Shown one piece after another: positions 22,922 through 37,239 of a stretch of DNA of 64,000 nucleotides; positions within the stretch are counted from its first letter, which is position 1, and each line of letters begins with the position of its first letter. The notes under the pieces are model-generated. The model ran no database searches and was not told where the DNA came from. It saw nothing but the letters and a program-made list of their open reading frames with translations. The translations under genes were made by a program, and so were the position numbers. The stretch is from Candidatus Bathyarchaeota archaeon (GTDB lineage Archaea; Thermoproteota; Bathyarchaeia; Bathyarchaeales; Bathycorpusculaceae): positions 186,001-250,000 of the forward strand of contig JAGTQZ010000002.1 in the NCBI GenBank assembly GCA_018396705.1, in the 5' to 3' direction.

Positions 22922-23431
22922 TTATGCTTTTAACTGTTTTATGACCGTCTCCAAGGCTTTTGCCACATTCTCAATCTTGCTTTGAAGCCTTGCGAGTTTT
23001 TCTTGAAGTTCAGCCTTCTCTTTCCGTTCTTTTTCCAGTTCAAGTTTAAGCTTCTCCACTTCCCCTTTTAGAGGGGCTTCAGCTTCCTCAGCAATGAAAG
23101 ATAAAACTTTCTCGCCGCGCACCAGCATTTCATAGGTTTCCCTTACAAGTTTTCCAGCCTCGGTTTTCCCGATTAAATGAGAGCGTATTGTCTGTTCGCC
23201 TCTTCCAAGTTCGTCAGCTATCCTTGGAACCGTCATGCCAGCCTTCTCTCTAGCAATGGCTCCAGCCGCCACAGCCAGCGAATCTATCCATGTTATTCTG
23301 TCTTTAGAGTCTGCGCTACGCATTTTCTCGATAACATCCTGCCTAGAAACCGTTCCAAGCAGAAGGACTGCCTCGAGTTTTTGAATGTCCTCTCTGCCCA
23401 AGGGTTTTAGGGGAATCTCAACTTCACTCAT
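22922..23431 (-). CDS. HTH regulator with C-terminal coiled coil
   Basis: A 169-residue protein. Residues about 35-95 form a helix-turn-helix-like region ([20 protein letters not shown]). The last 60 residues are a strongly charged coiled coil. It overlaps the following KaiC-type ATPase start by 4 bases, so it is the second gene of a two-gene unit. Similar HTH proteins accompany KaiC-like ATPases in archaea, suggesting the pair acts together in signalling. No target can be named. Confidence 0.68.
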
Positions 23432-24192
23432 GAGCTTTCACATCCTCCCTCGAAAAAACCTCTTGGGGTTATCCTGATAACTCTATCCGGGTAAACTGTT
23501 ATGCCCTTGCTTGTTATGTCGAAGGGATGCCTCCTCATAGAATGGCTTGTGCCGCGCATCTTCCAAATAATTATCGAGCGTTTGAGTTCCCCTTGAAACT
23601 CGTCTAAGTCAAGTCGGATAATGCCATCGGCGGCATGCTCAACACCCGGACCGCCAAAACCTCGATCTGTAACGCTAACTTGAGAGATAAGGAAGCTTGT
23701 GCAGCCTAAACCAGCCAAAACCTTCTTTATCAGCATGATAGTGGATCTTGCCAGCGCCGGTTTAGTCATGTAAAGCGTTGAGACAGAGTCTATGACAACC
23801 CGTTGGGCGTTCAAGTCGGTGATCGCCTGTCGAATAATATCCAAAAAACTTGGAACATCATCGGGATCCTTAGCAACATAACGTTCTCTTTTTGCCGCTT
23901 CACCAATGCCCGAAGTGAAAGCGTCTACAATGGCAAACTTGCCCTCCTGCTCGTACTTCCTAGGATCCCATCCGAAACGGTCCATGTTAATCCTAACTTG
24001 GACAGGATGCTCCTCCAAAGTCACCAATACGCCGGGCTCCCCAAGCCTAAACCCAGCGTATAGAAACTGCTGGCCAAAAATGGATTTGCCAGTGCCTGGA
24101 CCGCCAGACAAAAGGACAACGTTTCTCCTAGGCAAGCCTCCATTCAATATCTCGTTCATTCCGGGAATCCCAACATCAACACGGTCACTCAT
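23428..24192 (-). CDS. Single-domain KaiC/RadA-like ATPase
   Basis: A RecA-superfamily ATPase of the archaeal KaiC-like type. It opens with [20 protein letters not shown], has Walker A GGPGTGKS at residues 30-37, Walker [12 protein letters not shown], and the late ADGIIRLDL segment followed by [17 protein letters not shown], typical of KaiC domains. These proteins bind ATP and often autophosphorylate; their targets are mostly unknown. It is transcribed away from the archaellum operon, whose ArlH belongs to the same superfamily. Confidence 0.82.
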
Positions 24193-25204: not shown

Positions 25205-25262
25205 AGAGTTTAAATGTAAATCACAGATTTGAATAGTGAATCAGCACGTTAGGATGTTCATT

Positions 25263-26054
25263 ATGGCTAAGACAGACAATAACAGAAAAGAAACATCTGA
25301 AATAGCAAAACCGGAATGGGAAGAAGAGAAAATAGAAGAGAGCAAAGAGAAGGAAGAGATCGAAAAGTTAAAACTTAACGTTGAAAAGCTTTCTGAAGAG
25401 CTTAATACCGCTGTGGCTGAGCTTAAAAGGTCAATAATTGACATAAGGTCGGCTGTGAGTGAAATCGAGAATCCCTTCAACCTTCTGCGGGTAGTCACAA
25501 GCGAGAAAGATTTGAAAAAACTAAACCATGAGAGACTCCCTCCAGGCGTTAAGTCGCTGGTAATCGGGAAACCAAAAGAGAAGCTTGAGGAGAAAGGGGA
25601 AGAAGAAAAAGTTTCTCTATCGACAGCCATCCCTACTCCCAAAACTGAAATGTCAAAAGTTGAAGAGGTAAAGGAAGAACCTAAAGCCGAAAGAGAGACG
25701 GAAGTAGAAGAGCGTCGCTTAAAAGCGGAGCGTTTCCCGCGTGGAACAGCCTATCTAAGTTGGGTTTGGTCCCTTTTGGATGTTGGGTTCACGCCAGAAG
25801 ATGTAAGGCAGCTCTCGCAGTCTTATGAACATTTAGGCTTTCTGCCAGAAGGCCGAAGTGAACAAATTTATTCTTTAGCCATTGCCGCTGAAAAAGCCAA
25901 GTCTAAAGGTCTAACCAAAAAGGAATTACTTCTCAACATGTATAAAGCGTCCATACTTTCTGGACTAAGCATAGATGTGGAAGACATAAAACGGCTCATA
26001 GCTATGGCTGAAGGAAGAAAAATCAAAGCAAAAATGGATAAAAGGGTTGAGTGA
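25263..26054 (+). CDS. Archaellum accessory protein, ArlC/D/E- or ArlX-like
   Basis: A soluble protein of 263 residues from the ATG at 25263, chosen because AGGATG lies about 9 bases upstream; a GTG at 25236 adds 9 residues. Residues 10-75 form a charged coiled coil. A linker rich in Glu/Lys follows. The last 100 residues (AYLSWVWSLLDVGFTPEDVR then QLSQSYEHLGFL) resemble the FlaD/E domain that forms the cytosolic ring or links to chemotaxis in other archaea. Its position before arlG matches crenarchaeal arlX. Assignment is by position plus weak domain similarity. Confidence 0.6.
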   Translation: MAKTDNNRKETSEIAKPEWEEEKIEESKEKEEIEKLKLNVEKLSEELNTAVAELKRSIIDIRSAVSEIENPFNLLRVVTSEKDLKKLNHERLPPGVKSLVIGKPKEKLEEKGEEEKVSLSTAIPTPKTEMSKVEEVKEEPKAERETEVEERRLKAERFPRGTAYLSWVWSLLDVGFTPEDVRQLSQSYEHLGFLPEGRSEQIYSLAIAAEKAKSKGLTKKELLLNMYKASILSGLSIDVEDIKRLIAMAEGRKIKAKMDKRVE

Positions 26055-26554
26055 TGGGTTTCTCTCTGACGCTTTCCCATATCATAATGGTTATTGCTTC
26101 TGTATGTTTGGCAAGTGTTTTTTCTGCCTACGCGTTCTATACTGGAAACCTTGTTCAAAACGAGTTGGCACAGAACGTTAACAACTATAAAGCCATGGTC
26201 AACATTAAACTGGAAATAGTCTACGCCACCGTAAACACCACTACGACACCATCACACTTTGTTATATACGCAAAAAACACTGGAAATCTGCCCATGAGCG
26301 ACTTCACTTTTCTAGATGTCTATGTAGGAGGGTATGGAAAAGCCCAGTTCTTCAAATACAACGCTACAGCAGGACCTGGAAGTGGACAGTTCAAGCTGTT
26401 AACCGCTGATGGAGACAACTATTGGGAGCCACGGGAAACCGCAGTTATAATAGCTTATCCCACAAGCGATATTGAAGGCGTGATCTTTGAGGCTAAAATT
26501 GTGCCGTCAAAAGGTATAGGTAGCAGCTACCTCTTCCCTGCACCGCCATCATGA
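26051..26554 (+). CDS. arlG: Archaellum stator protein ArlG
   Basis: One N-terminal transmembrane helix (IIMVIASVCLASVFSAYAFY) followed by a beta-rich extracellular domain with the KNTGNLPMSDFTFLDVYV pattern typical of ArlF/ArlG. ArlG forms a filament-like cap on the pseudoperiplasmic side that, with ArlF, anchors the motor to the S-layer. Assigned as G from the order X-G-F-H-I-J. It overlaps the previous gene by 4 bases. Confidence 0.7.
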   Translation: MMGFSLTLSHIIMVIASVCLASVFSAYAFYTGNLVQNELAQNVNNYKAMVNIKLEIVYATVNTTTTPSHFVIYAKNTGNLPMSDFTFLDVYVGGYGKAQFFKYNATAGPGSGQFKLLTADGDNYWEPRETAVIIAYPTSDIEGVIFEAKIVPSKGIGSSYLFPAPPS

Positions 26555-26570
26555 GGAGGCGGAAGCCTAC

Positions 26571-27098
26571 ATGGGTTTTTCCGTGACCATAACTTCCTCA
26601 ATCGTCCTAATAGCTATCTTCGCATTGGCAGTGTCTCTTTTAATAACAACATTCCAAGGACTAAGAGACATGTCGCATGTTGCTGAAGAATACATAAGCC
26701 GAGAAAAGGAAAAACTCAATGTTGCCTTACAATTGGAAGTCTACCCCATAAACGCTACAGCGTGTAACGTAACGGTAAGAAACATAGGCTCTCAAACAGT
26801 GTTCTTTGAAGATCAATCAGGCTTCAAATGGAACACTATAATTGTCTCCTATGGAAACAGTTCATTCTGGACAACTTATCAGATTGAAGATTACGTCATA
26901 TCTGAGGTTAGGGTTTCTGGAACGGACTACAGTTTTACGCCGAGAAGTCATCCCTATATAGAAGCTGGAGAGGAAGCCTACATTGTGTTTAACATTCCAG
27001 AAGGTGCTCCGGAAATCCCAATTAACGGTTTAGTTTCTGTGGTTTTTGTCTCCCATTATGGAGCTATAGCCAAAGCAGAGGCGGTAAGAAAACAATGA
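26571..27098 (+). CDS. arlF: Archaellum stator protein ArlF
   Basis: MGFSVTITSSIVLIAIFALA is the ArlF-type N-terminus, then a single membrane helix and a beta-sandwich domain with CNVTVRNIGSQTVFF and a YIEAGEEAYIVFNI strand. ArlF binds S-layer protein and serves as a stator. It starts 16 bases after arlG with GAGGAGG upstream, and overlaps arlH by 4 bases (ATGA). Confidence 0.7.
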   Translation: MGFSVTITSSIVLIAIFALAVSLLITTFQGLRDMSHVAEEYISREKEKLNVALQLEVYPINATACNVTVRNIGSQTVFFEDQSGFKWNTIIVSYGNSSFWTTYQIEDYVISEVRVSGTDYSFTPRSHPYIEAGEEAYIVFNIPEGAPEIPINGLVSVVFVSHYGAIAKAEAVRKQ

Positions 27099-27796
27099 AG
27101 GTTATAAGTTTGGGAATAGCCGAGCTTGACCGAGATCTTGGCGGCGGGCTTCCTCATCCAAGTCTTATATCCATTGAAGGAGAATATGGCTCAGGCAAAA
27201 CTATTTTCGTCCAGCAAATAGCAAAAGCAATGCTGAACGTTGGGCTTCGAGTATACATTATATCAAGCGAGGCGACAGTCAAAGAATACTTATCCATGAT
27301 GAGGTCGGTAAGGCTTGACGCTGATGACCATTACCTTTCTGGTCAACTCAACATATATCCATTACATATCGAGGGGGGAAGATGGAACGATTTCTTAAGC
27401 TCTTTCTTTCTCAAAGTGACGGCGAATTTCCTTGAACTGAAAAAAGCTTTGTATGATGCTGTAATCATCGACAGCCTTAGCGTTTTAACTGTGAACACGC
27501 CGCCTTCAGAATTTCTAACTTTCATCACAAGAATGAAAAACCTTGTTTCAGACGATAAAACGGTGGTTACAACATTCCATCCGGATTTTCTTTCGGAAGA
27601 AAACATTATGAAGTTGAGGGCAAGCTCAGACGTATACCTAATGTTAAAAAACGCCAGCATTTCAGGACTCGACGTGAAAGTACTCCGAGTTGTAAAACTT
27701 TGGGGGGTTAGCGGTGAAAGAAAAAGCGCCATAACCCTCGAAATCAACCCTCAAATAGGTTTGAGAGTTATGCCCCTCAGCGGCGTAAAAGTTTAG
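27095..27796 (+). CDS. arlH: Archaellum regulatory ATPase ArlH
   Basis: KaiC-like ATPase of 233 residues. It begins ISLGIAELDRDLGGGLPHPS, has Walker A GEYGSGKT at residues 29-36 and Walker B AVIIDSLSVL. ArlH binds ATP without strong hydrolysis and forms a ring below ArlI in the motor. Its usual FlaH context between F and I supports the assignment. Translation is coupled to arlF. Confidence 0.88.
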   Translation: MKVISLGIAELDRDLGGGLPHPSLISIEGEYGSGKTIFVQQIAKAMLNVGLRVYIISSEATVKEYLSMMRSVRLDADDHYLSGQLNIYPLHIEGGRWNDFLSSFFLKVTANFLELKKALYDAVIIDSLSVLTVNTPPSEFLTFITRMKNLVSDDKTVVTTFHPDFLSEENIMKLRASSDVYLMLKNASISGLDVKVLRVVKLWGVSGERKSAITLEINPQIGLRVMPLSGVKV

Positions 27797-27807
27797 GAAG
27801 TGGGATC

Positions 27808-29481
27808 ATGTCGAAAAAACTTAAACTAAGCCTACCAAAATTCTCCGGTTTCAAACTGTCGCTCTCCTCAAAAAAGGAGATGACAGAGGAGGATGCTTGG
27901 CCGTTCAAAAGAACCGTCTGTGAAACATTAGAGGAAGCCATGACTGAACATCCATATTTAAAGAAATACTTAGAAAGTTTACCAGAAAAACCCAAGTACG
28001 TTTTAAACCTCGAGCTAGAAGAGTACGGAAAAGACGACAACATAGTCTATCCTTTAGGTTTAGGCATATACGCCCACATAGACATCGGCGGGGAAATCGG
28101 AAAATACAATATGGTGGAGCCTGAAAAACCAGACCGCAAACTTCTCGATGAAATTGAAGAAGCCGTCGCCGTGCTCATTGGCGACAAAGAGTATAAAGGG
28201 CAAAAAGAACACGTACTAGCCTCGCTTTTTAAACAAGCTATTAAAAAGAAAATGGTTAAAATTCCAAAAGAAAAAGATGAAAATGCGATTCTCTACCATT
28301 TTTTGAGAGAAAAAATTGGACATGGTTTCATTGACGGTTTTTTAGCAGATCCATGGTTAGAGGATGTCAGCATACCCGGAGAAGGTAAAGTTTTCGTTTA
28401 CCATAAAATGTTTGGGCATCTTGAGACTAATGTTGATGTCTCAAAGGATGAGATTAACCGCCTTTTAAAAAACATATCTGAAAGGTATGGAAAAGTCCTA
28501 AGCTACACGCATCCAATAATCGACATACACCTGCCTGATGGCTCAAGGTTCAACATTGTCTACGGCGAGGACATAAGCCTAAGAGGAAGCAACTTTACCA
28601 TAAGAAAGTTCCCAAAAGAACCGATTTCAGTTGCCCAGCTTATACGATGGAAAACAATGTCCCCCGAGTTAGGCGCCTACCTTTGGATGCTTTTTGAGAT
28701 TGGAATATCCGCAATGGTTTGCGGAGAAACAGCGTCCGGTAAAACAACAACATTGAACGCTTTAATGGGTTTTATAAACTCGGACTCCAAAATCATAAGT
28801 ATAGAAGAAACCCCGGAAGTCAATCTTTTCCATAAAAACTGGATTAGAGAGGTTACAAGGCTTCATACAGGTGCACCGGTAACAATGTTCGACCTTTTGA
28901 AGGCAGCCCTCCGCCAGAGGCCAGACTACATTATCGTAGGCGAAATTCGAGGCGAGGAAGGCCGAGTGGCATTTCAAGCCATTGAAACAGGCCACCCAGT
29001 TATTTCCACCATGCATGCTGGAACCTTAGGCCAACTCTTCCAGAGGCTTACATCCCATCCAATAGACGTCCCTAAAACTCACATTGATGGGTTGAACCTA
29101 GCAATTTTTCAGGCAAGGATGGAGCGGGGTAAACGGTTCATACGGAGGGTTACATCTGTAAACGAGATAATAGGATACGAGCCCGACGAAGGACGGTTAA
29201 ACTATTTGCCAACATTCCTCTATGACCCAGACTTGGACAAAATAAGGTTTATGGGTTCAAGCTATCACCTTGAAACCAAGGTTTTGGCTTTCAGAGGCTG
29301 GGGTAAAGAGAGGCTGAGGGAACTTTACGACGAGTTAAGGGCTAGAGCTGAAATCTTAAGCTTTCTGGCAGAGAACTTTCCGCGGTACACAGACGTTTGG
29401 AAAACATGTATTGCTGTTCGGGAAAAAGGCGTCTGGGAAGTTTATCGAAGAGTTAAAGAGATGAAGGTTCCTTGGGAATAA
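27808..29481 (+). CDS. arlI: Archaellum assembly and rotation ATPase ArlI
   Basis: GspE-type secretion ATPase of 557 residues that powers archaellin assembly and rotation. The P-loop GETASGKTTT is at residues 306-315. The Walker B region and Asp/His boxes appear in YIIVGEIRGEEGRVAFQAIE and TGHPVISTMHAGT. The N-terminal 120 residues are charged and variable, as in other ArlI. The next gene starts inside it (10-base overlap). Confidence 0.94.
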   Translation: MSKKLKLSLPKFSGFKLSLSSKKEMTEEDAWPFKRTVCETLEEAMTEHPYLKKYLESLPEKPKYVLNLELEEYGKDDNIVYPLGLGIYAHIDIGGEIGKYNMVEPEKPDRKLLDEIEEAVAVLIGDKEYKGQKEHVLASLFKQAIKKKMVKIPKEKDENAILYHFLREKIGHGFIDGFLADPWLEDVSIPGEGKVFVYHKMFGHLETNVDVSKDEINRLLKNISERYGKVLSYTHPIIDIHLPDGSRFNIVYGEDISLRGSNFTIRKFPKEPISVAQLIRWKTMSPELGAYLWMLFEIGISAMVCGETASGKTTTLNALMGFINSDSKIISIEETPEVNLFHKNWIREVTRLHTGAPVTMFDLLKAALRQRPDYIIVGEIRGEEGRVAFQAIETGHPVISTMHAGTLGQLFQRLTSHPIDVPKTHIDGLNLAIFQARMERGKRFIRRVTSVNEIIGYEPDEGRLNYLPTFLYDPDLDKIRFMGSSYHLETKVLAFRGWGKERLRELYDELRARAEILSFLAENFPRYTDVWKTCIAVREKGVWEVYRRVKEMKVPWE

Positions 29482-31064
29482 CTAAAAAAGCGGCAAAAAC
29501 GTCAAGGGAAATTCTTTTATCCATTTTACTGCTGTTCCCGTCCTTACTATTTGCGATTTATTACATGTTTACTGGAAAAATTTTAGAGGCCGTCCTCGTT
29601 TTGCCAATGGGTTTAGGCATTTTACTAATCTTAAAACATATGGGCAGGCGGCGCCTTCCAAGAAGAGTGGATTTTAGCTTAACCACTACTATTTTTCACA
29701 TGTATAGTTTGTCTCTGGGAGAAACCTCTCCAGATGACTTGGTTGGCACAATAGCTGAAAACAAGGAATATGGCTTTTACAGCCAAGTGTTTAGAAAAAT
29801 CCGCAGTCTCGCAAAAGATTTTGGATACGGTATTACAAAGGCCACGGCGCATGTAGCTGAGGCTGTGAAGCCTCCCCTAAAGGATATACTTGTAAGGCTT
29901 ACCAACGTGTTTTCAAGCGTCGAACCCCGCGGCTATTTGGAAATGGAATCTTCAATGTTGATTGAAGAGTATTCTGGATATTACACGCGGGCAATTGAAA
30001 CATTAAAAACTCTTGGAGGAATATTCACTTCTTTCCAAAGCGTGACCGTCTTCCTAATAATGACTATTGTGATTATGGCAATTTTCATGATTGACCCAAG
30101 CGCTATAGTATTTGGCTATATAATTGCCGCATTTTCCGTCATAATGATGTATGTTCTTTTTAGGGCCTCTTCGCCGAGAGAGCGACTTGTATATATAGGA
30201 AGGTATCCTCCAAAACTTTATCTTGCCATGAAGTGGGGCTTAATTGCAACTGGAGCGTCCTCGACAACTCTTGCCATTTTACTGTATTTTTCAAAGGGCC
30301 CGCCTTTGGCTTTTACGACATTAGGCTTAGGCATAATTGTCCCTGGAATTTTTGGGTACATGCTGGAAAAACAGGTAAGCAAGATTGATAGGCATTACCC
30401 AACTTTTCTTAAGGCTCTCGGCGAGAACTTGGCCTCAACTTCAGATTTGAAGGCCGCCTTCTCATATATTATTCAGATGGAGCTTGGTCCTTTCAAAAAG
30501 CTTGTCAGAGAAGCCTTGGCTAGGTTGAGGCTTGGAATAGGCCATGAACAGACTTTAGAGACGCTTGCTTCTGAGGCGGCGTCCTATCAGGTTCACATCA
30601 GTAACAGAATTTTTTTGGATGCCTTAAGCCGGGGTGCTAATCCGCTTGAGATTGGCAACGCTCTTGGAAATCGTGTTGTGAGGTTTATTGAGTTTCGGAA
30701 GTCAAGAGACGTTGCGGCTAAGGGTTTTCAAATGATAGTGATGGTTATGCAGCCTTTAACTGTTATGCTGTTAATTGTTATGCAGGTGCTTGCAGACTTT
30801 ATGTCAAAGTATTTAGTGAATCTGCCATACTTTGGTTTCAACGCCATTCCAATTCCAGTGATCGAAGTGGGCAACATAGCCCTAATTTTCATAATGGCAA
30901 TAGTAAACGCATTAACAATAAAAGAGGTTTCAGGTGGCCACTGGGGCACTTTTCTATTAAACTTGGGCATACTTTTGACAGTCAGCGGTTTAACTTGGAT
31001 GGCAGCCCACATGTTTATAGAATTTGCCTTGGGTTCCATGCCAAGCCTAGAACTGCCCGTGTAA
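29472..31064 (+). CDS. arlJ: Archaellum polytopic membrane platform ArlJ
   Basis: A GspF/TadC-like membrane protein of 530 residues with about nine hydrophobic helices and two large cytosolic domains (about residues 60-170 and 260-400). These contain ESSMLIEEYSGYYTRAIETLK and KALGENLASTSDLKAAFSYI. It is the membrane core beneath ArlI. The TTG start lies within arlI. A short GGCAA-GGTT-TTGCC hairpin follows at 31080. Confidence 0.92.
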   Translation: MGITKKAAKTSREILLSILLLFPSLLFAIYYMFTGKILEAVLVLPMGLGILLILKHMGRRRLPRRVDFSLTTTIFHMYSLSLGETSPDDLVGTIAENKEYGFYSQVFRKIRSLAKDFGYGITKATAHVAEAVKPPLKDILVRLTNVFSSVEPRGYLEMESSMLIEEYSGYYTRAIETLKTLGGIFTSFQSVTVFLIMTIVIMAIFMIDPSAIVFGYIIAAFSVIMMYVLFRASSPRERLVYIGRYPPKLYLAMKWGLIATGASSTTLAILLYFSKGPPLAFTTLGLGIIVPGIFGYMLEKQVSKIDRHYPTFLKALGENLASTSDLKAAFSYIIQMELGPFKKLVREALARLRLGIGHEQTLETLASEAASYQVHISNRIFLDALSRGANPLEIGNALGNRVVRFIEFRKSRDVAAKGFQMIVMVMQPLTVMLLIVMQVLADFMSKYLVNLPYFGFNAIPIPVIEVGNIALIFIMAIVNALTIKEVSGGHWGTFLLNLGILLTVSGLTWMAAHMFIEFALGSMPSLELPV

Positions 31065-31184: not shown

Positions 31185-31271
31185 ATTTTAAATAATGTTT
31201 ATTATATCTTAATATACGCTATTCACTTGGTGGAGGTAGTGGTGGAGTAAGTAGAGTAGGTGGTAGAAAAT

Positions 31272-32126
31272 ATGAGAGAAAAACCAAACATTAAATGCCA
31301 AAAATGCGGACACGAATGGCACACCAAGTCTAGGCTTAAAATGGTGACATGCCCATCATGCAACCAGAAAACTCCAAACATCACGTTACATCCTCGCCGA
31401 CGGGTAATCAAGGCTCTTGCACAAAGCAGACAAGCAATCATCGGCCTAGAAGCAGCCATAGTGCTAATCGCATTTGTCATTATAGCAGCAGCCTTCAGCT
31501 TCATGGTGGTCAACCAAGGCTTATATGCCACTGAAAGAGGCAAAGTAGTCATACAAGAAGGCCTAAAACAGGCTAGCACACCGTTAACCATAGATGGAAC
31601 AACCTTTGTGAGAACAACGCCCGACGGCAGAACTGTAAATGTAATCATAGTCCCAGTGAAGGCCTTTGGGGTGAAGTTTGTTGCTTTTGGAAGAAATCAA
31701 ACAGTTATAACCCTAAGAGTAGGTGAAAAAGCGTGGGCTAACGTATACTGCGGAGTGCTCTATAATAGCACCGACACAAGCAAGACTTATGATCCTTCAC
31801 TGCGATATGGAAATGGCACACACTCCGTGAAATTTGACGATTTTGTTGGTTTTCGATATAACACCACTGCAGGAGTTTATGTAAATGGAACATATAATGA
31901 AGACCTAATTACTGGAGCTGTGCTCGCCATTGCAAACAGCAATGGTGACGAGGCCTTAGATACTGGTGAGAAGGGATATCTGCTGATAACCCTTGCAAGG
32001 GAGGACGTTGCCTCAGCCAGAACTGCAATAAATATTGAGATAAGGCTGGACAAAAGCGCCACTCTTTCAATTGAAATTACCATTCCAGAGTCCATGCCAG
32101 CCAACACCTACGTACCAATAATCTAG
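31272..32126 (+). CDS. Archaellin (A type) with N-terminal zinc ribbon
   Basis: A 284-residue archaellin. The mature N-terminus IIGLEAAIVLIAFVIIAAAF is the type IV pilin-like helix, and the processing site is SRQA|IIG with Ala at -1. What is odd is the 55-residue leader: it carries a complete four-cysteine zinc ribbon (C9-x2-C12 and C27-x2-C30) followed by a basic stretch. The ATG at 31272 follows AGGTGG by 8 bases. The beta domain has several NxS/T sequons (NQT, NST, NGT, NTT). No downstream start avoids the ribbon entirely without losing the basic leader. Confidence 0.85.
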   Translation: MREKPNIKCQKCGHEWHTKSRLKMVTCPSCNQKTPNITLHPRRRVIKALAQSRQAIIGLEAAIVLIAFVIIAAAFSFMVVNQGLYATERGKVVIQEGLKQASTPLTIDGTTFVRTTPDGRTVNVIIVPVKAFGVKFVAFGRNQTVITLRVGEKAWANVYCGVLYNSTDTSKTYDPSLRYGNGTHSVKFDDFVGFRYNTTAGVYVNGTYNEDLITGAVLAIANSNGDEALDTGEKGYLLITLAREDVASARTAINIEIRLDKSATLSIEITIPESMPANTYVPII

Positions 32127-32140
32127 GAGGAAACAAAAGC

Positions 32141-32812
32141 ATGACTAAAATGCGGAAAGATAGAAAAGGCGTTGTGGGCATTGAGGCCGCCATAGTTCTT
32201 ATCGCCTTCATTATCGTCGCAGCTGCATTGAGCTATGTCGTCGTTAACATGGGCCTCTTCATAACGCAGAAAACTAAAGATACAATGCAGGAGGGTGTGG
32301 ACGAATCCCAGAGTGCACTACAGCTGGACGGCATAATAGTTGGAAAGACAAATAACGAGCGTCAAGTGGAGTGGCTGATTTTGCCAGTTAAGTTGTCTGT
32401 TGGCAAAGCTGCTCTCGACTTCAAGAAAGAAGCCATTGTGATTTCGGTGTACTTGCCAAACGCAACATTGTTGAACATTTATAATGGGGTTTACATGAAC
32501 GGAACACAGACTGAAACAGACTGCGACGTGCTAATAGCAAACCTCAGCAGACTCTATAAAATGAACGAAACAGACATGGCTATGTCCATAATTTACAACG
32601 GCAACGGCAATACTGTTCTTGAATCCACGGAGAAAGCCTTCATAATAATCCACTTGAACAGCACAGTGGCCGGCTTTCCGAGAATACGCCACACCCTAGT
32701 CGCTTATGAAACCGTAACCATAGAAGTTAGAGGCGCTAGAGGCGCAGTTTTGACAGTTGTGCGCACAATCCCCGGCGGATTGCTTGAAAACTCGTATGTG
32801 GATTTACGTTAG
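32141..32812 (+). CDS. Archaellin (B type), first copy
   Basis: A 223-residue archaellin with a normal 10-residue leader ending DRKG, then VVGIEAAIVLIAFIIVAAAL. It belongs to the B type, recognised by ALSYVVVNMGL and TQKTKDTMQEG after the hydrophobic helix and by a C-terminus ending in TVVRTIPGG. It follows the A-type gene by 14 bases with AGGAGG upstream, so the pair is co-translated. NxS/T sequons are present. Confidence 0.9.
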   Translation: MTKMRKDRKGVVGIEAAIVLIAFIIVAAALSYVVVNMGLFITQKTKDTMQEGVDESQSALQLDGIIVGKTNNERQVEWLILPVKLSVGKAALDFKKEAIVISVYLPNATLLNIYNGVYMNGTQTETDCDVLIANLSRLYKMNETDMAMSIIYNGNGNTVLESTEKAFIIIHLNSTVAGFPRIRHTLVAYETVTIEVRGARGAVLTVVRTIPGGLLENSYVDLR

Positions 32813-32968
32813 CACATAACCTTCTTTCTAGTCTGATTTTGAATCGGATTTTGTAATTTATTCAATATTTAGAATCGAAATTGTAAATTCTACAAATTCA
32901 TATCGCCATTTCATAATCCTTAATATAAGTTCCAATAAAAACTGAAAACGCAAAACGGTGAATGAAAA

Positions 32969-33619
32969 ATGAATTGGAAAAAAGTGCTGGTGAAAATAGC
33001 AAAACAGAAACGCGCCATGATAGGCTTAGAAGCCGCCATAATCCTCATAGCCTTCGTCATCATAGCCGGAGCCTTCAGCTTCATGGTCATAAACCAAGGC
33101 CTATTCGCAACAGAAAGAGGCAAAACAGTAGTCCAGGACAGCCTAAGACAATCAAGCACACCATTGATAGTGGACGGAAGCATATGTCTAAGAGCCAGCT
33201 CTCCAACAACAATAGACGCTATAGTAATCCCACTGAGGGCTTATGGTGTCAAGTACGTAGCACTTGGAAAAGAAGAAACCTCTGTAACCCTTCAAGTAGC
33301 CGGCAGTGCTTGGCCCAATGTATATGAAGGGATAAATGGAACATTCACCACAAGTGACAACTTTGACGACCTAGTTCAAAACGTAACTTCGGGTCATGCT
33401 GCATTGTTTATCCAAAACAGTAATGGCGACGAATCCTTGGATTCAAACGAAAAAGGCTTCTTAGTTTTATCATTAAGCAACACCGCATCTGCAAGAGCCC
33501 ACATAGTTGTCGAAATCAAACCTGAAAAAGCTGCGCCGCTTACAATTGACTTCTATGTTCCAGAATCTTTGCCAATTCCAGAAGGTCAAACAACAAGCTG
33601 GGTGACGGTGGCGGGCTAA
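32969..33619 (+). CDS. Archaellin (A type), second copy
   Basis: A 216-residue archaellin. The 16-residue leader KQKRA|MIGLEAA has Ala at -1 like the first A-type protein but has no zinc ribbon. The FSFMVINQGLFATERGKTVV helix end and STPLIVDGS segment match the first A-type gene closely. A separate 156-base AT-rich spacer before it, with TTAATATAAG near 32922, suggests its own promoter. Confidence 0.9.
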   Translation: MNWKKVLVKIAKQKRAMIGLEAAIILIAFVIIAGAFSFMVINQGLFATERGKTVVQDSLRQSSTPLIVDGSICLRASSPTTIDAIVIPLRAYGVKYVALGKEETSVTLQVAGSAWPNVYEGINGTFTTSDNFDDLVQNVTSGHAALFIQNSNGDESLDSNEKGFLVLSLSNTASARAHIVVEIKPEKAAPLTIDFYVPESLPIPEGQTTSWVTVAG

Positions 33620-34264
33620 ATGTTCGGCAAAAAACTGTTTAGGAATAAAAAGGGCATTGTGGGTGTTGAGGCTGCTATCGTGCTCATAGCCTTCCTGATA
33701 ATCGCGGCGGCTCTCAGCTATGTTGTCATAAACATGGGCTTCTACACAACCCAGAAAACGAAGGAAACCATGCAAACAGGATTGGAAGAATCATTGACCG
33801 CTCTGCAACTGGACGGCGTAGTTACGGCAAGAACTAACGATTCGTCAAATCACATCCTCTACATACTGGTACCGGTTAAACTATCTGCGGGCAGAGGAGC
33901 AGTGGATCTCAGTAGTAGCTCAGTGGTAGTTTCAGTATATTTGCCAAACGCCACATTGATGAATATATATCAAGGCGCAAATCCGGGAACGACAGATGTT
34001 ACATGGGACAAACTAAATGGCACTTTGAAGCTTGAAAATAATCAAGCTAAATTTGCGATATACAACGATGACGGTGACACTCTACTGGAATCAAATGAAA
34101 AGGCCTTCCTATTAATCCGCCTAAACGCAACAGATACCAATTATATGCTTGGAGAATATCAGACCATAAAGATTGAGGTTAGAACGGCGAAAGGCGCTGC
34201 CCTTACAGTGGTTCGCACAGCCCCCGGCGGCCTAGCATCAAAATCTTTCGTAGACTTAGGCTAA
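33620..34264 (+). CDS. Archaellin (B type), second copy
   Basis: A 214-residue archaellin with leader NKKG|IVGVEAA and the B-type signatures ALSYVVINMGF and TQKTKETMQTG, and the C-terminus TVVRTAPGG. Its ATG abuts the preceding stop with no spacer, a strong sign of coupled expression with the A-type partner. After it a T-rich stretch (34300-34340) may end the transcript. Confidence 0.9.
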   Translation: MFGKKLFRNKKGIVGVEAAIVLIAFLIIAAALSYVVINMGFYTTQKTKETMQTGLEESLTALQLDGVVTARTNDSSNHILYILVPVKLSAGRGAVDLSSSSVVVSVYLPNATLMNIYQGANPGTTDVTWDKLNGTLKLENNQAKFAIYNDDGDTLLESNEKAFLLIRLNATDTNYMLGEYQTIKIEVRTAKGAALTVVRTAPGGLASKSFVDLG

Positions 34265-34354
34265 ACGACCACCATCATATACTCCACCCTACTTCCACCC
34301 ATTTTTTGGTAATAACTCTACCTCTCTTTTTCTTCACAATTTCCTTGTTCCATT

Positions 34355-35545: not shown

Positions 35546-35812
35546 ATGGGAAGGGGACGAAGAGGAGAGGTTCAAATTCTGATAGATATTCTAACATTGT
35601 GCTCGAAGGGGGTGGGGGTGAAGATGACCCATTTGATGTATAAGGCTAATTTAAGTTACTCGACTCTTCACAGATATCTCAACTTTGCATTAAAACAGGA
35701 CTTGATTAGTAAGGTTTGCAAAGATGACGGCTCCGTTGTTTATTGCATCACGGAAAAGGGCAAACTGCTTTTAGAAAAACTTAAAGATGTCAGGTACGTC
35801 CTGCAACCTTAA
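35546..35812 (+). CDS. Winged-helix regulator (HTH_45 type), copy 1
   Basis: An 88-residue winged helix: ILIDILTLCSKGVGVKMTHL then MYKANLSYSTLHRYLNFALK for the recognition part, and a wing ending YCITEKGKLLLEKL. It is a paralogue of the gene at 36922, sharing the MYxANLSY core. Such small proteins are common archaeal transcription factors; targets are unknown. The position beside the archaellum locus makes archaellum control a possibility. Confidence 0.8.
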   Translation: MGRGRRGEVQILIDILTLCSKGVGVKMTHLMYKANLSYSTLHRYLNFALKQDLISKVCKDDGSVVYCITEKGKLLLEKLKDVRYVLQP

Positions 35813-36921: not shown

Positions 36922-37239
36922 TTGGGCAGCTATAGAAGTCGACTAGACATTATAGCTGACATTCTTTCAGTTGTTAAGGGAAATGGCAGTGCAAAGAAAA
37001 CCCAAATCATGTATGGGGCGAATTTAAGCTATACCGTTCTATCCAAGTATTTGGATGAACTTTTAAACGCTTGTCTCTTAAAATTTGAAAGCAACAAACG
37101 CCATTATGTGCTTACTGAGAAAGGCAAAAAGTTTCTGCAATACTATCGCGAATATTCTAGGCGAAACAAGCATGTTGAACGCCAACTGGAAACGGTGAAC
37201 GCGAAACGAAAGATTTTGGAGGGACTTTGCTCTGCATAA
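36922..37239 (+). CDS. Winged-helix regulator (HTH_45 type), copy 2
   Basis: A 105-residue winged helix: DIIADILSVVKGNGSAKKTQ then IMYGANLSYTVLSKYLDELL, and a wing with HYVLTEKGKKFLQYYREY. It is a paralogue of the gene at 35546. The TTG start follows GGGTGAT. A signal-peptide membrane protein and a DUF1616 protein follow within 40 bases each, so the three may be one unit linking a surface sensor with a regulator; this is inference. Confidence 0.8.
   Translation: MGSYRSRLDIIADILSVVKGNGSAKKTQIMYGANLSYTVLSKYLDELLNACLLKFESNKRHYVLTEKGKKFLQYYREYSRRNKHVERQLETVNAKRKILEGLCSA

Follow-up and report, generated by a model that had tools for sequence, protein, structure and literature searches.

Class III leaders are usually regarded as disposable tags. 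In the window, the whole stretch of 64,000 nucleotides analyzed here from the genome of a Candidatus Bathyarchaeota archaeon (1.7 Mb, 97% complete), the first of four archaellin genes encodes a leader of 55 residues with two CxxC pairs. The question raised by this locus is whether this extended leader is real and, if so, what a domain predicted to be cut off could do. The archaellin genes follow a motor cluster at 25236-31064, and the genes concerned are listed below.

25236..26054, + strand: arlC/E-like, first gene of the motor cluster; name inferred from position; order conserved in relatives with enough flanking sequence
26051..26554, + strand: arlF-like; named by position; conserved order
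26571..27098, + strand: arlG-like; named by position; conserved order
27095..27796, + strand: arlH-like RecA/KaiC-type ATPase; named by sequence and position
27808..29481, + strand: arlI, assembly/rotation ATPase; PF00437, 1.1e-32; conserved order
29472..31064, + strand: arlJ-like platform membrane protein; named by position; no Pfam match; conserved order
31272..32126, + strand: arlB1, the ribbon archaellin, 284 aa; PF01917 and TIGR02537; ATG, GTG or TTG at or near the aligned start in relatives
32141..32812, + strand: arlB2, B-type archaellin with a 10-residue leader; PF01917, 4.4e-26
32969..33619, + strand: arlB3, A-type archaellin without a ribbon, 16-residue leader; PF01917
33620..34264, + strand: arlB4, B-type archaellin with a 12-residue leader; PF01917, 1.4e-26

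The same order, arlCE-F-G-H-I-J and then the ribbon archaellin, was found in the relatives with enough flanking sequence. In G153 (locus L082), unlike the other relatives compared, the arl motor genes are divergent from the gene pair formed by the ribbon archaellin and a B partner. Within the genome of the window, the archaellin closest to arlB1 is arlB3, with 51% identity over the matched part. The archaellin types alternate A-B-A-B over 31272-34264, and the A/B split is deep in the tree; this array may be compared with the filament of Methanocaldococcus villosus, in which two subunits alternate (PMC8821640). Three genomes of one genus have two A archaellins only, and a lone B-type archaellin in G151 (L086) adjoins a peptidase-like gene on a contig without an A archaellin or a motor gene. 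Upstream of the motor cluster, at 22922-24192, lies a divergent gene pair, one member encoding a KaiC-like ATPase and the other a protein of 169 residues; their counterparts at locus L035 are 84-94% identical. Downstream of the array, two related small ORFs (35546-35812 and 36922-37239) look winged-helix-like by eye and are possible regulators.

The translation of 31272-32126 reads MREKPNIKCQKCGHEWHTKSRLKMVTCPSCNQKTPNITLHPRRRVIKALAQSRQA up to the predicted cleavage site and continues with IIGLEAAIVLIAF. The first-pass annotation had described a four-cysteine ribbon, C9-x2-C12 and C27-x2-C30, in a 55-residue leader ahead of a normal class III signal peptide, and leaders of 10-16 residues in the other three archaellins. 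Every one of these numbers is right in the translation; the signal peptide, RQA before IIGLEAAIVLIAF, scores above the cut-off of TIGR02537, and the other leaders measure 10, 16, and 12 residues. The protein can be divided as follows.

31272..31436, + strand: 55-residue leader, with predicted removal at the class III site between A55 and I56; translation, TIGR02537 at residues 52-83
31281..31379, + strand: zinc-ribbon core, residues 4-36 (KPNIKCQKCGHEWHTKSRLKMVTCPSCNQKTPN); alignments, pN/pS of 0.15, AlphaFold2
31380..31436, + strand: variable basic linker ending at the cleavage site; variable length and sequence, pN/pS of 0.56
31437..32123, + strand: mature archaellin, A type, 229 aa; PF01917, tree

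PF01917 matches residues 57-268 of arlB1 with an E-value of 1.9e-15 and 58 bits, above its cut-off of 29.5, and the archaellin N-terminus model TIGR02537 matches residues 52-83, also above its cut-off. The basic or small residue, the cleavage site, the Gly at +3, and the hydrophobic helix of class III signal peptides are all present, so that the domain, the signal peptide, and the motor-gene neighborhood of an archaellin are found together. The leader is outside the typical range of 6-12 residues (PMC4307647), a feature that is typical of archaellins and not obligatory. By every sequence test, arlB1 is thus an archaellin and departs in leader length alone.

The domain within the leader is predicted to be a zinc-binding zinc ribbon. 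When the leader alone was modeled with AlphaFold2, short beta strands were placed around both CxxC pairs, as in two hairpins; pLDDT is about 84-85 for residues 11-30, and the linker is ill-defined. The two CxxC knuckles in predicted beta hairpins are the hallmark of a zinc ribbon. In the full-length model, confidence is too low (mean pLDDT 63.8) for the position of the ribbon relative to the helix to be read. Pfam zinc-ribbon families match the leader weakly and below their cut-offs. HypA (PF01155) was rejected, with 23.9 bits against a cut-off of 28.9 and a match to the zinc part of the profile (67-99) alone. The ZitP-like finger family (zinc_ribbon_5/PF13719, MJ0042 type) was rejected as well: PF13717 and TIGR02098 are below their cut-offs, and PF13719 is absent among the matches listed. 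Structure and sequence searches of the PDB with the ribbon returned generic matches, none of them usable for assigning a function or naming a partner; the best Z is 3.5, and the weak matches include LysW, RNA polymerase subunits, RBR ligases, HVO_2753, and ZitP (finger 2nb9, Z 2.7, 44 residues, 4.9 Å).

Is the ribbon translated together with the archaellin? If the annotation were an artefact, translation would begin within the ribbon or downstream of it, and the frame ahead of that start would be open by chance. In some genomes, an in-frame TTG, GTG, or ATG does occur between the ribbon and the cleavage site, as such an artefact would need, but four loci (the window, L035, L038, and L042) have no ATG, GTG, or TTG from the ribbon to the cleavage site, and the codon of the internal Met24 is AAA in L041 and L043. 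The start context GGTGGTGGAAA-ATG/GTG is common to the closer relatives, and the GTG at 31260 is a less likely start of arlB1 than the ATG at 31272. Pairwise codon counts over 14 loci gave a pN/pS of 0.15 for the ribbon core (residues 4-36), 0.56 for the linker, 0.07 for the signal and helix, and 0.27 for the rest; pS is about 0.73-0.75 in all parts, with synonymous sites near saturation. The ribbon is therefore under tighter constraint than most of the mature archaellin, and the codon counts indicate that it is under strong purifying selection as a protein. The aligned leaders have 18 invariant positions, and the four Cys residues are invariant in the 12-13 sequences aligned there. The comparison of these sequences indicates that the ribbon is translated with the archaellin, and an artefact of annotation is extremely improbable; the internal start that could have undone the first-pass reading is absent from these loci.

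The fusion was screened in 91 genomes of the family of the window, in 257 genomes of the class Bathyarchaeia, and in a 398-genome sample of the phylum. A ribbon and an archaellin in one ORF were found in 13 of the 91 family genomes, the window's own included, and the relatives of arlB1 in the family are 57-88% identical to it. Whenever a genome of the family yielded an A-type archaellin, it also has the ribbon; G042 yielded only a B-type fragment, on a short contig. The class search added one fusion, that of G153 in a sister family, and one relic, in G148, bringing the fusions to 14 Bathyarchaeia genomes. CxxC pairs upstream of the signal peptide, suggested beforehand as something to look for in related archaellins, are thus present in 13 further genomes. 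Each genome has one ribbon gene, and the ribbon is confined to the first archaellin of the array. In the phylum sample, 146 genomes had a match, and among the matches listed no ribbon precedes an archaellin outside the group, the strong matches beginning near the signal peptide; none of the archaellin leaders extracted from this sample has a pair of CxxC motifs. The class search detected no solo ribbon in four archaellated families without the fusion (f5, f3, f8, f25), with a profile of ribbon plus signal that a diverged solo ribbon could escape. A chance ribbon was rejected, as the same ribbon stands at the same place in the 13 further genomes with the invariant positions and the low pN/pS noted above, and an assembly error is very unlikely because the assemblies come from several independent projects.

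A maximum-likelihood tree was built from 82 mature archaellins with the leaders excluded. All 14 ribbon proteins fall in one clade inside the A type with support of 100/100, and a single change is needed in all bootstrap trees. The nearest sequences without a ribbon are two further A archaellins from the same assembly as the ribbon gene of G153. Since the single clade was recovered from the mature parts, the ribbon was gained once, with no loss seen among intact descendants: on this tree, the N-terminal zinc ribbon was added to one A-type archaellin gene in the common ancestor of these Bathyarchaeia and has been kept since. The relic in G148 (L081, L076) retains the promoter, the GT-rich 5′ leader, and the ribbon codons; ACG stands at the position of the start codon, the frame is closed by a stop after the linker, and the downstream sequence gives no archaellin match. 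No motility genes are nearby, and no close ArlH orthologue was found in this assembly, which is rated 62% complete. This is what decay after the loss of motility would look like. A ribbon on a separate gene in related genomes had been named as a finding against the first-pass reading, and the relic is the sole case. A single origin followed by retention in all the swimming relatives that were examined makes it almost certain that the ribbon has a function.

The ribbon had been proposed to remain in the cytosol after cleavage. Its conservation supports its being a real part of the leader, and the cytosolic location agrees with the known cutting of class III leaders on the cytosolic side by an A24-type peptidase (PMC4307647). 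The precursor would be inserted in the membrane with the ribbon on the cytosolic side, and the one A24 prepilin peptidase found in the genome of the window (ArlK/PibD type) would cut the ribbon off before polymerization, as a 55-residue extension should not fit into the filament core. With the ribbon removed before assembly, it would act on the precursor, or else just as cleavage takes place. Of the three functions proposed in the first-pass annotation (delayed processing, binding of an ArlI/ArlH-type partner, and sensing), binding of a partner is placed first here. The reading ranked first, held tentatively at a little under an even chance, is that the ribbon is a docking domain which binds a cytosolic or membrane-associated partner, such as a motor part, a polar scaffold, or a chaperone, before the peptidase releases the precursor, so that arlB1, alone among the four archaellins, would be positioned, retained, or admitted in its own way. 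Glycosylation of archaellins can take place with the leader still attached (PMC4390842); the inserted precursor can thus have a lifetime, which favors docking on it. Docking is consistent with the fusion in 14 genomes, the tight pN/pS of the ribbon, its single origin, the shared gene order, and the one A24 peptidase. It is also consistent with residues that are conserved in the archaellin ribbons and not as a set in other ribbons, namely KPNI, H17-T18-x-S20, N31-Q32, and N36, which point to a specific contact. Against it, the weak fold matches name no partner, similar ribbons on unrelated proteins and alone make a general function possible, and the strongly basic leader (13 K/R against 2 D/E) would suit nucleic-acid or membrane binding equally well.

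The ribbon stands directly before the cleavage site as a folded domain with a variable linker, and it could slow or license membrane insertion or cleavage, so that arlB1 would mature only with zinc, or later than the other archaellins. A pure steric brake needs no invariant residues other than Cys, such as K4, N6, T18, S20, Q32, and N36, however, and a linker whose length varies by several residues among relatives would provide poor spacing; a zinc gate of this kind is improbable.

The 5′ end of the array is also conserved and has two features.

31198..31204, + strand: TATA-like TTTATTA, core of a promoter block common to relatives; upstream alignment of 14 loci and the G148 relic, promoter role inferred
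31227..31271, + strand: C-free GTG/GTA-repeat mRNA 5′ leader; C-poor in all relatives

The spacing from the TATA-like element predicts a transcript start at about 31226-31230, and no stretch of the window without C is longer than the 57 nucleotides at 31227-31283. The GG runs in the window could suggest a G-quadruplex, but this reading was abandoned because such runs are missing from several relatives; an upstream micro-ORF (GTG GTG GAG TAA) was likewise set aside, since it is not conserved. The C-poor 5′ leader and the ribbon co-occur in all members and in the relic, and simple-repeat leaders are also found on some other ribbon-headed genes. While still nascent, the ribbon could accordingly be imagined to bind the ribosome or the GU-rich 5′ leader of its own mRNA and to tune translation, with no role after synthesis. 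No RNA-binding signature was identified in it, however, and C-poor mRNA leaders made of simple repeats may simply be widespread in the lineage, so that a purely co-translational role is quite unlikely. After the last archaellin, a C-rich block ending in a T run (34268-34310) is complementary to the G-rich, C-free 5′ leader at 31227-31271. The pairing, at -49.7 kcal/mol, ranks fourth among 4264 windows taken from both strands, and some of the higher ranks belong to the complement of the leader itself. Similar blocks are present after the last archaellin in L036, L037, L039, and L040 and absent in L042, L044, and L045; the block may reflect terminator composition or end-to-end pairing.

The main rival to docking is regulation by the released peptide. 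Cleavage would free a 55-residue zinc-ribbon peptide into the cytosol, where it would report archaellin export and alter archaellum gene expression by binding RNA, DNA, or a regulator. The basic charge of the ribbon, its relationship to small solo ribbons, and the unusual conserved 5′ leader of the mRNA agree with such feedback, and precedents exist in the archaellum repressor ArnA, which has a zinc finger (PMC6509490), and in one-domain zinc-finger mini-proteins, some of which are reported to be needed for Haloferax swarming (PMC6562870). On the other side, a freed peptide might be degraded at once, and in G148, which is non-motile, the start codon of the ribbon and the archaellin are both gone, which indicates that the ribbon has no use of its own there. 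Feedback of this kind is somewhat unlikely. Its fuller form is considered with more doubt and is rather unlikely: a single gene would yield two functional products, of which one is the subunit of the filament and the other a free zinc-ribbon signal peptide that couples archaellin export to expression or to assembly order. If true, this would be a secretion-coupled checkpoint built into the leader of a type IV filament. Docking is ranked first and regulation by the released peptide second, and nothing in the evidence is decisive between the two.

Related ribbons help to place the domain. Solo ribbons in G050, G027, G028, and G230 share the CxxCGYxW...TCPxC type with the arlB1 ribbon; like the small archaeal ribbon HVO_2753 of Haloferax, whose structure is a weak fold match only, they have no archaellin attached. 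Since related ribbons occur both alone and on unrelated proteins, the ribbon is a portable module. In G120 and G121 (L087, L088), a ribbon is at the N-terminus of a 220-residue protein, behind a GTAGGTAGGTAG leader, and by eye this protein reads like the NuoE/24-kDa subunit family. In G045 (L111), an N-terminal ribbon on a 123-residue frame follows GTTAGTTAGTTAG-type repeats. The small solo ribbon of G050 (L019/L090) is beside a gene that reads like Cas1, and those of G027 (L020/L091) lie at several contig ends, a location suggestive of mobile elements.

Known systems show parts of this arrangement. Other archaellins (ArlB/FlaB, PF01917) are alike in mature sequence, cleavage site, and genomic setting, but have short class III leaders, whereas the leader of arlB1 carries a predicted folded metal-binding domain. 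The first-pass statement that no characterized archaellin is like this agrees with the open-access literature, in which no archaellin or prepilin was found described as having a zinc ribbon in its leader. ZitP of Caulobacter, which serves pili and swarming, likewise has an N-terminal cytosolic CxxC/CxxC ribbon before one membrane helix and an extracytoplasmic domain, and its ribbon binds a polar hub (PMC5182063), which makes it a precedent for docking. ZitP is a membrane regulator with an unrelated remainder (DUF3426), whereas arlB1 is a filament subunit, and no mention of cleavage of ZitP by a prepilin peptidase was found; arlB1 resembles ZitP in topology and is no ZitP. A link between ribbons and type IV filaments is shared with the Zn-ribbon proteins encoded by archaeal T4P loci (arCOG07264, arCOG06883; PMC4858521), but these are separate proteins, whereas the ribbon of arlB1 is fused to the leader of a filament subunit. 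A further precedent for docking is that bindosome loci of Sulfolobus encode membrane proteins with an N-terminal Zn ribbon (PMC4858521).

One class III leader has thus carried a conserved, predicted folded domain since a single origin, on one subunit of four, and the ribbon is a marker for the archaellated members of one bathyarchaeal family. How archaellins are told apart and ordered has been asked since alternating and hook-like archaellins were described (PMC8821640). A docking or reporting role of the ribbon, if true, would reveal how archaea that have several archaellins distinguish and order them.
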